Origin: Cystobasidiopsis lactophilus
Taxonomy: Eukaryota > Basidiomycota > Agaricostilbomycetes > Agaricostilbales > Chionosphaeraceae
Length of the DNA: 64,000 nt
NCBI GenBank assembly: GCA_001599975.1
Contig: BCIO01000001.1
Location: 1,612,001-1,676,000 of the forward strand
Direction of reading: 5' to 3'
Made by a program: the position numbers and the translations under genes. Below are positions 5,124 to 10,227 of the stretch, in pieces. The notes beneath the pieces are model-generated. The model was not told the DNA's origin and searched no databases. It saw nothing but the letters and a program-made list of their open reading frames with translations. How positions within the stretch are numbered: the stretch's first letter is position 1; every line of letters starts with the position of its first letter.

Positions 5124-6093
5124 ATGAGCTCAGACGTTGGCTCTTCACCCCAGAAGGAGGATGACGCCTTCAAGGTCTTCCTTGATTCCGCGTAAGTGCT
5201 CCGAGGAACTGGACGCGAAGACCCTTTCTCACGCCCACGCAGCAAAGGGAAGCGTCGGGCAGAGCGTCGCAGCGCGCCTTTCGTCCAAAAGCTACTGGGA
5301 AAGAGCAGCTCGTCTGGCACCAAGGCGGCGTCTAGCGAGTCATCGCCTTCGAAAGCTGGCTCATCAGAAAACGAGTCGTCCTCGCCTCCTCCCAACGCGG
5401 ACACCTCTTCTGCCTATGTCCCCAGTGCAGAGAAGGCCAGAAATTCCAAACCGATAGCGGTGATCGCGAAAGAAATCGAAGACGAGTCAGAGGCCCCAGT
5501 CGAAGAGGAGGAGGAAGTCGAAGAGGAGGAAGTCGAGGAAGAGGAAGTCGAAGAGGAGGTAGTCGAAGAGGAGGAAGAGGAGAACTGCCTTTGCGATATC
5601 TGTCAAGCCGAAGTCGCGCATGATAAGCAAAGCGACGAAGAGGCCGAGGCGAACGAATCTGACAGCGGCTCTGTGAGTGCATTGGGTTTGCTGGGTCCCG
5701 CTTCAACCTGACACGCTTCTCTCCCCTTAGGAAAAGCGCCCTTCTGAAGCATTTCAGCGAAGGCCCTCTTCCACCACGTCGGTCGAAGTCGAGACTACCG
5801 TCAACTCTCGCATTCGCAAAGAGCCCCCCAGCCAGCCGCCCCCTTTGGACTTCTCGAAACCGCTCTTTCACTTTGCCGACGACTCGACCTATCACAGTCG
5901 CAGAAGGGAATATCTTTTGCTCTGGATTCGATACTACGAAGAGCTTCTCCGAGCCGCCACCAAAGACTCCGCAATCAGTTGCCTCCAATCAGAAATCAGA
6001 CGCAAGCGGGAGAGCCTGCTGGAGCTTGATTTCCAGGAGGAAAACAAAAGAGTTCAAGATGCTCAACTTGCCAAACGAATGCGCCTGGGATAG
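5124..6093 (+). CDS. Acidic, disordered protein of unknown function
   Basis: Three exons joined by clear introns: one near 5194-5242 after the first 23 codons, another near 5673-5731. The protein starts MSSDVGSSPQKEDDAFKVF. A basic Ser-rich stretch follows, then a long Glu run interrupted by Val (5499-5580), then one CxxC pair (CLCDICQAEV). The C-terminal part is helical and ends with basic, coiled-coil-like sequence (SRRREYLLLWIRYYEELL, then KRVQDAQLAKRMRLG). The last third looks folded and may be the conserved part. No family was recognised. The composition suggests a nuclear, chromatin- or RNA-associated protein, but this is inference. Confidence 0.65.
5499..5580 (+). repeat. In-frame minisatellite encoding (V)EEE(E/D) units
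   Basis: Imperfect tandem repeats of about 15 bp built on gtcgaagaggaggaa, with roughly five units. They code for Val-Glu-Glu-Glu-Glu steps inside the acidic protein at 5124-6093. Unit sequences differ slightly (gaggag/gaagag), so the array is not freshly duplicated. Confidence 0.75.
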
Positions 6094-6211: not shown

Positions 6212-7950
6212 CTAGGGATCCACCTCTAGCTCGGGCGAGCAGCTGCTGCCAACCCACTGCCACGCCTGAAACTTGTGATTGAGGCCCTTGTCCTCGTGCA
6301 CTGAGTAGACGCTGCCCAGTCCTCCAGCTGAGGGCGACGAACGAATATAATACACATGCGCGACTCTTGAATGCAGCAATGCCATCGAGCACATCAGGCA
6401 CGGCTCGTGGGTGGTGAAAAGGCTGAGGCCGGAAAGCAGGTAGGGCGGCGGTTGGCCGTCCACATTGCGTGCGTTGCTTAAGTCGAGGGCCGCCACGGCG
6501 TGGATGAGGTTGGCGATGGAGTGGCAGAGAAAGTTGCCGGTCGTGCGCCGCGAGTCCATCACCTCTGCCAGCGGCGGCCCGAGCTCGCTGGACGCCACCA
6601 AACTGGCTATCGGCAAGTCGCCTCGCCGCTCTGCCTCGGCTCCGAGCCGCTCGACGCGCGCCACCATGGTTTTCACCCACTCCAGCTGAGAGCGCGACCA
6701 GCCTTTAGGCATGACCTCGGCCGACGAGCCCACCCGCTCCGGCACGTAGGTTACCGGCCAGATGGCGTTGAAGGTCTTGATCTGCTCCTTGGACGCGGCC
6801 GCCCGATTCGGCACTTTGGTCTGGTAAGGGGTGCCAACCGCTGCCGGATGCGCTGCTATCGAATCGAGGCGCTCTGAAGGGCAGTTTAAGTTGGCTTGAA
6901 TTAAGATGGTCATCCGGGTGTGGTCTATTCGCCGGATACGCTTAAGATGCGCTGAATCGGGGCCGGGCCAAGAGGTGGTGTCGACACTCTGCTTGAGGAA
7001 GCTGTGTGGGTTTTGGTCAGCTGCGGCTCGACGATTGAAGAATGTGGGAAACGAACTCAAACATGCTGGTAGACTCTTTCGCGACGACGTCGACAACCCA
7101 GGCGTCGATGAGCTCTAGCGGCAGGTCGACCAAGGCGACCTCGTTGGTGATTCTCCGGCAAGGTAGATCGGCGAACGGTATTAGATCGTCTAGAGCAGGT
7201 TGCCCAGGCGATGGAGAGTCTAGTCGGGAGTTCAGCCCGTCCGCCAGGCCGGCGAGCGACGAGAGGGCGTCCCAGCCATCGAGAGTCTCCTCCTCGCTCT
7301 CCGTCTCCTCTCCGTATCGAGCGTGCGGCCCGTAGAAAATACACAGCTCCTCGTTGGCTGCCACGTCCTTTGCGAGCGAGTAGTGGATGACCTTGGCGTG
7401 GCGGTCGATGGCAAAGTTGACGTTTGGGAACTTTGAGTGGTTGAACATGGAGCCTGGGTGGTCTTCCAAGTGAGTCATCTCTGGGATTCCTATCAAGCAA
7501 GCCATAACGAAAAAGGGGCCCACCTAGGCCTAAAGCCACGCCCATCTGTCCCAGCCGCCAGGAGAAGACGTAGTCCTTGAGCACCGTCTCTCCGACGCCT
7601 CCCCTCCTGGCGTACTCCTCCTTGGACAAGACGATGACCGGTGAGATCTCGAGCAAAGTGCCTTTGGCCATGGCCTTGGACGTGTACACGCCCCGCCCTT
7701 TGCCGTCTTGCTGATCCAGGATTTTCAGCGAATGCACATTCAGGTGCTCCGTCTCCAGCGGGTACACCGGCCGCCCATCTTGGCCGGTCTCTAGCGGTGT
7801 CGTAGCCCCTGAGCGGGTGGTCTTGTACGGCAGGGCGGGCAAGGTGTCGAGGACGCCCTGGACTAGGCTGTCCTTGGCCTCTTTGGAGACAAACTCGACG
7901 CAGGCCGCCGTCTCTTGCTTCATGTCGCCTCTAAGCGTGGGCGGCCGCAA
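6212..7950 (-). CDS. TAD3: SET-domain protein fused to tRNA adenosine deaminase subunit TAD3
   Basis: Three exons appear to encode one chain. Exon 1 (7950-7524) and most of exon 2 encode a SET-like domain: GKGRGVYTSKAMAKGTLLEI, then HPGSMFNHSKFPNVNF and ANEELCIFYG. Exon 2 continues into VDLPLELIDAWVVDVVAKES, which resembles the N-terminal domain of Tad3. A clean intron (7060 down to about 6999, AT|gtttga...cacag|C) gives KESTSIFLKQSV and leads straight into AHLKRIRR and the deaminase domain. The deaminase has HAV, with Val at the catalytic Glu position as is normal for the non-catalytic ADAT3/Tad3 subunit, and PCLMC as the other zinc ligands. Tad2/Tad3 converts A34 to inosine in tRNA. The first intron is only 34 nt (7490-7523). 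Alternative: TAD3 starts separately at the ATG at 7096, but that would lose its N-terminal domain. TAD3 identity is firm; the fusion is a strong inference. Confidence 0.8.
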
Positions 7951-8152: not shown

Positions 8153-10227
8153 TCACTCCCATGAGACCCTGTTGGCGCCTGGAGACCCTGGAGCTGGGGC
8201 GGCGGTGAATTGCTTTGAGAAGAACTCGTACGCATCATTGCCTGGTTTCACAGATTTAAACACTCGAGCAAAGCAGAAGAGGGAGAGGACAGCGACTCAC
8301 TTGCGTTGAACATCCAAATGGCGGACAGAACCAGGCCGCCACCGATGACCGCAGCCGGCGTGATGTGGAAGTCGAAGAGGAAGACGGATGCGACGAATGA
8401 GATGAGGATGGAGATGGAGGTCGAGAAGTTCTTGGCAATGTTGTCGGCGTACTGTCGGAACGCGCAAAAGTCAGACAGAGACCAGCGCGGCCGCTGCAAG
8501 CCCATTCACCTTGATCACTAGCGCTGCCAGCAGGCCGCCCATAGTCTGTAAGACCACCACGAACCAGGCCATGGGTCCAAATCCAGCCAAAAAGTGCAGC
8601 GGCAGCTCTGCTACCGGCTTCAAGCTTTGGAAGAACGGCAAGGGCTCCACCATCGGGTCCGCTGCCCACCACGCGGCTCCGATCGACTTGAACGCCGTTT
8701 GATTGGCCTCTAAGTAGAACATGAGGAGGCCCATGAGCAGGGCGAAGGAGCTGAGTTGCACATTGCGAACCCAGAGGCCGACGGGCGGCGGTGGGTTTAG
8801 ACTGAGCGGCGGTTCTGAAGTGCTGGCAATGTTGGATGGGACGGGCAAAAGCGGCTGGGAAGAAGTCGATGACATATAAGACGGATCTCTAGACATTTCG
8901 TTGGCGCTGTTGGGCGTCGAGAACGACAGCGGCGTCGGTGGCGTATGGCGAGGGAGGAGGTCCGTGTGCTGGCTCTCCGGGTGTGGCCGATCCGGCACTT
9001 TGAGCACCCTTTCAAAGTAGGTGCTGGCAAAGCCAGAAGACAGCGACATCAGGAGCACTGCCAGCAAGCCAATGATCGAGTTCATCTCTGGCAGCTGAGG
9101 GAGCGCGTCCGAGTCTTTGGCGATCGATGGCCGAACCAACAGCGGTGTTGTGTCTTCTTGCGGTAGAGACAATTCGGACATTTGGGCGGAGGAAGAGGTG
9201 GCTTGTGTTTGGAGCTGAATGACGGCGACTCCGCCGGCCAGCAGGACGAGCGACAGCCATTGCATGTGGTTGAGATTGCGTTTGAGTAGTAGAACGGAAC
9301 ATAATGCGGTGGTTAAAATCTGCACTGCCGTCATGAGAACGCGAAGCCTGAAAGTAACAGAGGGAGGCACAAAGCACGCACTTTGAGTTGGACAGTGATT
9401 TGAAATGTGGGCACAGATAGGTTCGCGAGGGCGACCAATTGTAAGATGCTTTGTAGTGTGAACAGAATAGCTGGAATCGCCAGTTTCCAGGCCGCCGGGC
9501 CGAAAACTTGATACAGAGTGGTGTCGATGAGGTCGGCCCACGTCCAAGTGAGGTCGTCTAGCCCAGGCGACGATTGGTCCGGGTCGTCCTCCGAATCAAC
9601 AACTTGGGAGATGATGATGGCCTCTTTGGTCCGATTAGGCGTCGACTCGACCGAGAAGGGGTACTTCTCGGGCGACTGCCACGGCGTGAACTCGACGGAG
9701 CTCGATTTGCCGTGCGTGGGCGTCTTTAGGGGGTCGTCGTCTATAGGCGGCGCCTTGCTGGGCGTGCCCATTGAGATCCTCCGCTTGGCCCTGTGGAACG
9801 CTGGGCTCTCGGTGTCGTCCGAAGGCGCGGAAGCCGGCGGTGGGACCGGCAGGTCGGCCAAGTCGATCCCCAACCCTAGCTTGTCGCCCGCTGGCCGCAG
9901 TGGCACCTCACCCGAATCGTGCACCTCCTTCAACGCCAGTGCACAGCTCACAATGAGCTTGCCCAGTTCGCTCAACCTGCGCCCTCGTCGACTTTAATGC
10001 GCTGTATTTTTGTGCAAGCAGAGGCCAATGCACGTACGCAACAGCGCTGCTGGCCTTGTAGTTCTCTGTCGATGCATCATGACGCGCCCTGGAGCTGTGC
10101 AACACAATCGTCAAGACCCTATGGGGAACGCCGGGCGTCAGAGGAGGGCGTGTTTTGTTCCGAGCCAAAAGACTCGCGAATAGTGCACGGTGAGCGCCAT
10201 GAGGGACGCCGCTCGTCTCGAGGGCAT
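8153..10227 (-). CDS. Nucleotide-sugar transporter (SLC35A-like, UDP-GlcNAc/UDP-Gal type)
   Basis: Golgi/ER nucleotide-sugar antiporter. The membrane core includes AAWKLAIPAILFTLQSILQL, LANLSVPTFQITVQLK, RVLMTAVQILTTALCSVLLL, WLSLVLLAGGVAVIQLQT, LLAVLLMSLSSGFASTYFER and the late block FSTSISILISFVASVFLFDF. These are signature segments of the UDP-sugar transporter family. A long Ser/Pro/Asp-rich loop (about 9520-9930) after the second helix is unusual in length. A second low-complexity loop lies near 8780-8960. The last intron (about 8250-8303) joins to a short tail ending VSWE at 8153. The exon around 10037-10130 splices cleanly to give SSAVALSELGKL. The 5' end is not solved: HYSR near 10180 looks like the family TM1 motif, but the splice joining it to the next exon does not fit a canonical donor/acceptor in phase. 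Confidence 0.75.

Follow-up and report, generated by a model that had tools for sequence, protein, structure and literature searches.

On the minus strand of the 64,000-nucleotide stretch of contig BCIO01000001.1 from the basidiomycete Cystobasidiopsis lactophilus analyzed here (the window, whose positions are used throughout), a gene at 6212..7923 almost certainly encodes, to judge from its sequence, a fusion of a Set7-type SET domain with Tad3, the protein that together with Tad2 makes the wobble inosine of tRNAs (PMC11087585, PMC11156358). This SET7-TAD3 gene runs from an ATG at 7923 to a stop at 6214-6212 and, in the best-scoring model, comprises three exons that together encode 528 residues. 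Exon 1 (7524..7923) encodes roughly 60% of the SET domain, preceded by an N-terminal extension; intron 1 (7454..7523; 70 nucleotides, GTGGGC...CCCAG) yields the conserved join GLG-SMFNHS; exon 2 (7057..7453) carries, in a single open frame, the end of the SET domain, a linker, and the beginning of the Tad3 N-terminal domain; intron 2 (7002..7056; 55 nucleotides, GTTCGT...CACAG, with CTGAC ahead of the acceptor) interrupts the Tad3 N-terminal domain; and exon 3 (6212..7001, with the stop TAG) supplies the remainder of that domain and the deaminase-fold domain. At the protein level, the SET domain spans residues 59-185 (7299..7749, split by intron 1) with the motifs GRGV, NHSKFPN, and EELCIFYG, followed by an acidic linker with the motif LDGWDAL (residues 186-229; 7167..7298) and by the Tad3 part (residues 230-528; 6215..7166, split by intron 2), all on the minus strand.

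The SET-Tad3 junction and the splice sites

The join between the two halves falls within one exon. Since the single open exon 7453-7057 by itself reaches from the SET end through the linker to about residue 36 of the Tad3 part, the join is independent of any splice guess. We scanned 2000 six-frame pieces of open reading frames (ORFs) from the window with profiles built from 148 fused homologues, the window protein excluded. The top match of the profile of the Tad3 N-terminal segment was the exon 2 ORF (E value of 2.4e-4; best domain, 6.5e-4) and the second was the exon 3 ORF, whose E value of 0.16 is not significant alone, while an overlapping profile made of the linker and the first part of Tad3 matched exon 2 at an E value of 7e-5, the next match having an E value of 3.1. 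These matches bear out the proposal of the initial annotation that the exon ending the SET domain continues in frame into Tad3 N-terminal sequence. In addition, the window protein has no Met residue in the stretch that separates M136 (within the SET domain) from M264 (within the N-terminal domain of Tad3). The gene can therefore not yield two intact proteins that each begin at an ATG, and no internal ATG could start a Tad3-only product that keeps its N-terminal domain entire. At 7096, which the initial annotation had named as an internal start to be checked, the in-frame sequence has no ATG. The wider claim that SET and Tad3 belong to one gene stands, both on the window DNA and on its homologues, of which 119 of the 120 listed have both domains and one has a structure model that matches solved proteins of both kinds (see below).

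To place the introns, six splice models were scored against a profile of 119 homologues, from which the window protein and a partial ORF (P0045) were excluded. The best model (introns 7523-7454 and 7056-7002) reached 399.5 bits, compared with 394.1 bits for an intron 2 donor at 7062 and 386.8 bits for one at 7074. A second profile, made from five homologues (Sporobolomyces, Atractiella, two from Microbotryum, and Rhodotorula), ranked the donors alike (7056, 410.4 bits; 7062, 403.9 bits; 7074, 395.8 bits), and the donors at 7062 and 7074 were rejected on these lower scores. So was a 34-nucleotide alternative to intron 1, each such model lying 18 bits below its 70-nucleotide version. Intron 2 at 7056-7002 thus scores best, being preferred over 7062 by 5 to 7 bits, a score difference that falls short of proof. 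From the junction AT|gtttga...cacag proposed initially, the CACAG acceptor is kept, whereas the donor at 7062 gives way to GTTCGT at 7056.

The two halves of the protein and their linker

Among solved structures, the SET half is closest in sequence to Schizosaccharomyces pombe Set7 (PDB accession no. 5h6z and 5ww0), which shares the motifs GRGV, NH...PN, and ELCI.YG with it and is also the best fold match of the SET half in the predicted model of a fused homologue, P0002. The GxG, NH..PN, and catalytic Tyr motifs, whose residues we take to be catalytic or cofactor residues here as well, are all present. The window protein is identical to S. pombe Set7 at R77, N138, H139, P143, N144, and Y174; among the residues that it thereby retains, R77, N138, H139, P143, and Y174 are found in 128/130, 145/145, 139/145, 146/146, and 146/148 ungapped rows, respectively, of an alignment of the 148 fused homologues. 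S. pombe Set7 differs in being a free protein of 147 residues, whereas the SET half of the window protein is joined to Tad3. By its title, a study by Shen et al. from 2019 reportedly identified S. pombe Set7 as an H3K37 methyltransferase required for proper gametogenesis. The chlorovirus protein vSET (PDB accession no. 1n3j and 3kma), which is viral and likewise free, is more distant by sequence (E value of 3.9e-9).

The Tad3 half (residues 230-528) is complete, with an N-terminal tRNA-binding domain and a deaminase-fold domain, and is matched over its full length, N-terminal domain included, by eukaryotic Tad3/ADAT3 (PDB accession no. 7bv5, 7nz7, 9hmm, and 8aw3), with the zinc ligands kept and the catalytic Glu absent. 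Compared with these solved proteins, the window protein adds the N-terminal SET domain and the linker; no solved chain in our table of sequence matches had a best stretch covering both halves. The predicted structure of P0002, the one homologue whose fold was compared, matches both solved Set7 and solved ADAT3/Tad3. As to the deaminase core motifs, the initial annotation had pointed to HAV and PCLMC. The latter was correct: the cysteines of this zinc-binding motif (residues 466-470; 6389..6403) are found in 147/147 aligned rows. HAV (residues 433-435), in contrast, was rejected as the metal motif, since its H column holds Arg in 140/147 rows. The metal-binding His is instead H426 (6521..6523; motif HSI), whose column is His in 146/146 ungapped rows; the two residues after it are S and I, in place of the A and E seen in the Tad2-like protein of the same genome. 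Window Tad3 thus retains the zinc ligands H426 and PCLMC, with the catalytic Glu replaced. In Tad3 this Glu is replaced usually by Val (PMC11087585), and the N-terminal domain grips the tRNA, its rotation presenting the anticodon loop to the active site (PMC11802342).

A Set7-type sequence search of the 22.1-Mb assembly matched the fusion locus only, so no second Set7 was found there, and neither was a second Tad3, the matches being the fusion locus and a weak one (40% identity) at a Tad2-like gene. This gene, on contig 2, carries TLHAEFVAMG and VEPCLMC and is named from its HAE and PCLMC motifs rather than from a full comparison. Other SET genes do occur in the genome, with 16 Pfam SET matches at an E value of 0.001 or better, the fusion locus included. 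Both subunits of the deaminase are essential in yeast and Fusarium (PMC11087585, PMC11156358); should this hold for Tad3 of the present fungus, the cell would depend on the fused protein.

Within the linker, a strict pattern for the Trp motif (LDGWDAL in the window) occurs in 109 of 133 fused linkers, compared with a mean of 26 and a maximum of 36 in 200 shuffles; for this count, the linkers were cut to 60 residues and 15 of the 148 rows, which lack the anchor, were dropped, and the rows are related, so that their independence is overstated. The same pattern was seen in 1 of 54 tails of free Set7, a hand-picked set (56 names, two without the anchor) that includes a doubtful liverwort record. 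The first part of the linker profile also matches free Set7 tails, e.g., those of Umbelopsis, Absidia, and Serendipita, and among the matches listed the profile finds 25 of 120 SET-only entries at an E value of 0.01 or better, cut fused genes included. The free-tail matches weaken the claim that the motif is rare in free Set7. The Trp motif could be a docking site, for which the statistic is weak because the rows are related; the sequence of the linker start suggests that it may be an old C-terminal tail of Set7.

Distribution and history of the fusion

Three homologue searches, with the best 120 matches listed per search, yielded 291 proteins. By profile, 148 of these contain both domains, 120 SET only, and 23 Tad3 only; a length limit confined one of the searches to short proteins, so that its number of SET-only entries is by design. 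The order is SET-Tad3 in 148/148 fused proteins, and the named ones belong to the Basidiomycota. In the main search, where 119 of the 120 listed matches hold both domains, the closest relatives with a name share 37% identity with the query over 83-87% of its length; these matches and the trees described below place the window protein near Pucciniomycotina. The remaining entry, P0045, comes from a metagenome; its ORF covers SET and the linker and breaks off in the first part of Tad3. The rest of Tad3 is found in P0290, whose contig has the same reported size, 4948 bases, as that of P0045.

Some of the apparently single-domain entries seem to derive from fused genes. Four SET-only entries (P0122, P0153, P0157, and P0225) contain Tad3 N-terminal sequence (profile E value of 3e-7 or better) and are thus cut fused genes, and five more (P0172, P0183, P0187, P0189, and P0228) look like cut fused genes by eye, the Tad3 N-terminal profile being not significant. 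A further cut fused model, P0128, is included in the 148. On the Tad3 side, 14 of the 23 listed Tad3-only entries match the linker profile at an E value of 0.01 or better, suggesting that a fused gene was split in annotation. SET-only and Tad3-only entries lie on contigs of equal reported size in Postia (P0245/P0147), Leucogyrophana (P0261/P0152), and Plicaturopsis (P0276/P0126), where a fused gene has probably been annotated as two.

Apparently free Set7 proteins occur in Mucoromycota, relatives of Mortierella, fission yeasts, and one chytrid (a partial record). The question raised at the outset of whether the fusion is lineage-wide can be answered in part: it is present in many named Basidiomycota and apparently not in every basidiomycete. 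No named protein from Ustilaginomycotina, Tremellomycetes, or rusts was among the best 120 matches per search, which does not imply absence. One record from a liverwort, Marchantia paleacea (P0188), is a Set7-type protein placed with basidiomycete-type sequences by the 51-row tree described below and possibly represents fungal contamination.

In a SET tree of 37 chosen Set7 rows, with no distant SET family included, a branch with support of 98/96 separates the 27 rows, both fused and free, that were taken as basidiomycete from 10 other fungal Set7 rows. Within this tree, a weakly supported group (81/63) takes in 20 of 21 fused rows, Calocera standing apart. Of 200 bootstrap trees, 0% unite the fused rows on one side of a branch, and a single clade is not rejected (p-AU, from the approximately unbiased test, of 0.065). 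In an earlier tree of 51 rows, where nine partial or short basidiomycete models were labeled SET-only, the fused label needs six changes. For P0172, P0183, P0187, P0228, and P0045, the label “fused” in the trees was assigned by eye; none of them reaches an E value of 0.01 with the Tad3 N-terminal profile (best, 0.58), and P0172, P0187, and P0045 do so with the linker profile. The joint form may have arisen by one fusion with later splits or by repeated fusion.

Both halves belong to known families; what is new is the joint form kept in many Basidiomycota. We found no paper on a SET-Tad3 fusion among the matches listed from an open-access library, subscription papers being outside the search. 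A survey of fungal SET proteins in 229 species places S. pombe Set7 in Group 19, and the text of that survey, figures aside, has no occurrence of “deam” (PMC9692433). The joint architecture is nonetheless visible in public names such as “SET domain-containing cytidine deaminase-like protein” (Phanerochaete) and “TAD3” (Sanghuangporus). Fused entries are otherwise labeled “SET domain-containing protein 7,” “Histone-lysine methyltransferase Set7,” or “cytidine deaminase-like protein,” labels that describe one half of the architecture apiece, so that recognizing the fusion helps annotation.

Possible functions of the joined enzymes

In the reading that we favor, the single gene would give rise to a single polypeptide with two enzymes. 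Its C-terminal 300 residues would act as Tad3, pairing with a separate catalytic Tad2 to convert A34 of tRNAs to inosine and contributing a zinc site that lacks the catalytic glutamate as well as the N-terminal domain that grips the tRNA. The N-terminal part would be a lysine methyltransferase of the fission yeast Set7 type with its catalytic residues intact, tied to the tRNA-gripping domain by the acidic, probably flexible linker, and each wobble deaminase complex would consequently carry one methyltransferase. The SET domain may act on histone H3, the reported substrate in fission yeast, on the deaminase itself, or on a neighbor. The sequence supports both translation as one chain and SET activity, which we infer, and we regard it as likely that both halves are active in one chain. 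That the two activities are also functionally coupled is a tentative proposal, and the purpose of tethering them, which might be to hold Set7 at the deaminase, is a guess.

Several observations weigh against this reading. The donor of intron 2, GTTCGT, is unusual, and the Pfam deaminase match of the window protein, at 23.7 bits, lies just below the cut-off of 25 bits. In the model of P0002, part of the linker has very low confidence and there is no sign of a fixed contact between SET and Tad3. Apparently free Set7 proteins of 144-163 residues are found in basidiomycetes, namely, three from Serendipita and those of Cantharellus, Clavulina, and Wallemia, so that the joint form is not indispensable. 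Finally, 130 of the 148 fused homologues have a Met between the SET end and HLKR, which makes Tad3-only starts possible elsewhere.

In an alternative reading, both halves work in one chain and are unrelated, the fusion being passive and giving only equal dosage or shared expression after the loss of a gene boundary. The poorly modeled linker, the existence of Set7 without Tad3 in other fungi and apparently in some basidiomycetes, and a linker start that resembles free Set7 tails, and may be just an old one, all speak for this alternative. A precedent exists in the Su(var)3-9/eIF2gamma locus of insects, where a SET methyltransferase gene was likewise joined in ancient times to a gene related to translation, there for an otherwise unrelated translation factor, and later split again in aphids (PMC1435931). 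The two cases differ in that the Su(var)3-9-specific exon sits in an intron of eIF2gamma (PMC1435931), whereas in the window one exon encodes parts of both proteins without a break. The constant order in all fused proteins and the persistence of the Trp motif over shuffled linkers, overstated as that count is, speak against mere passivity, which we nevertheless consider a serious possibility.

Alternatively, the locus might give two products, with alternative promoters or splicing leading to the fusion (or Set7 alone) and to a Tad3-only form. In Fusarium graminearum, TAD2 and TAD3 use alternative promoters (PMC11087585), and the in-frame M264 could start a Tad3 missing the first part of its N-terminal domain; no ATG downstream of the SET core, however, could give that domain whole, and we consider this option unlikely. 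It is more improbable still that the SET half is inactive or a binding module: H139 is replaced in 6/145 and Y174 in 2/148 fused homologues, but the window protein and nearly all others keep the catalytic residues, and its six identities to S. pombe Set7 argue the same way. Finally, a misreading of two adjacent genes as one, to which the split public models from Postia, Leucogyrophana, and Plicaturopsis might lend credit, is rejected as scarcely credible on the Tad3 profile match within the SET exon and the Met gap from M136 to M264, many of the Tad3-only entries themselves looking like split annotation by their linker matches.

If the two-enzyme reading with coupling holds, it is tempting to speculate on a more general link, in which Set7 works with Tad2-Tad3, methylating the complex or chromatin at sites of tRNA production, so that inosine editing and lysine methylation are coregulated, perhaps in the sexual phase, and in which Set7 and Tad3 would still interact in fungi that encode them separately, such as fission yeast; we hold this extension to be rather doubtful. 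A fusion conserved in many Basidiomycota prompts the question of whether Set7 and Tad3 meet in the cell, gives Set7 a testable partner, and ties together protein methylation and tRNA anticodon editing, which are usually studied apart. In F. graminearum, four perithecium-specific modifications of FgTad3 are described (one acetyl-Lys, two phospho-Glu, and one methyl-Glu), with no methyl-Lys among them (PMC11087585). A-to-I editing of mRNA, which is described for filamentous ascomycetes, was set aside as the purpose of the fusion; older reports of editing in basidiomycetes have been reviewed (PMC7306014), and a later analysis found them erroneous (PMC11156358).

As for the surroundings of the gene, the convergent neighbor on the plus strand (5128-6093) contains a strongly acidic, Glu-rich stretch, and its ORFs 5196-5711 and 5731-6093 gave no Pfam match at an E value of 0.001. 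The upstream neighbor, on the minus strand at 8471-9595, is a nucleotide-sugar transporter (PF04142; E value of 1.4e-33).
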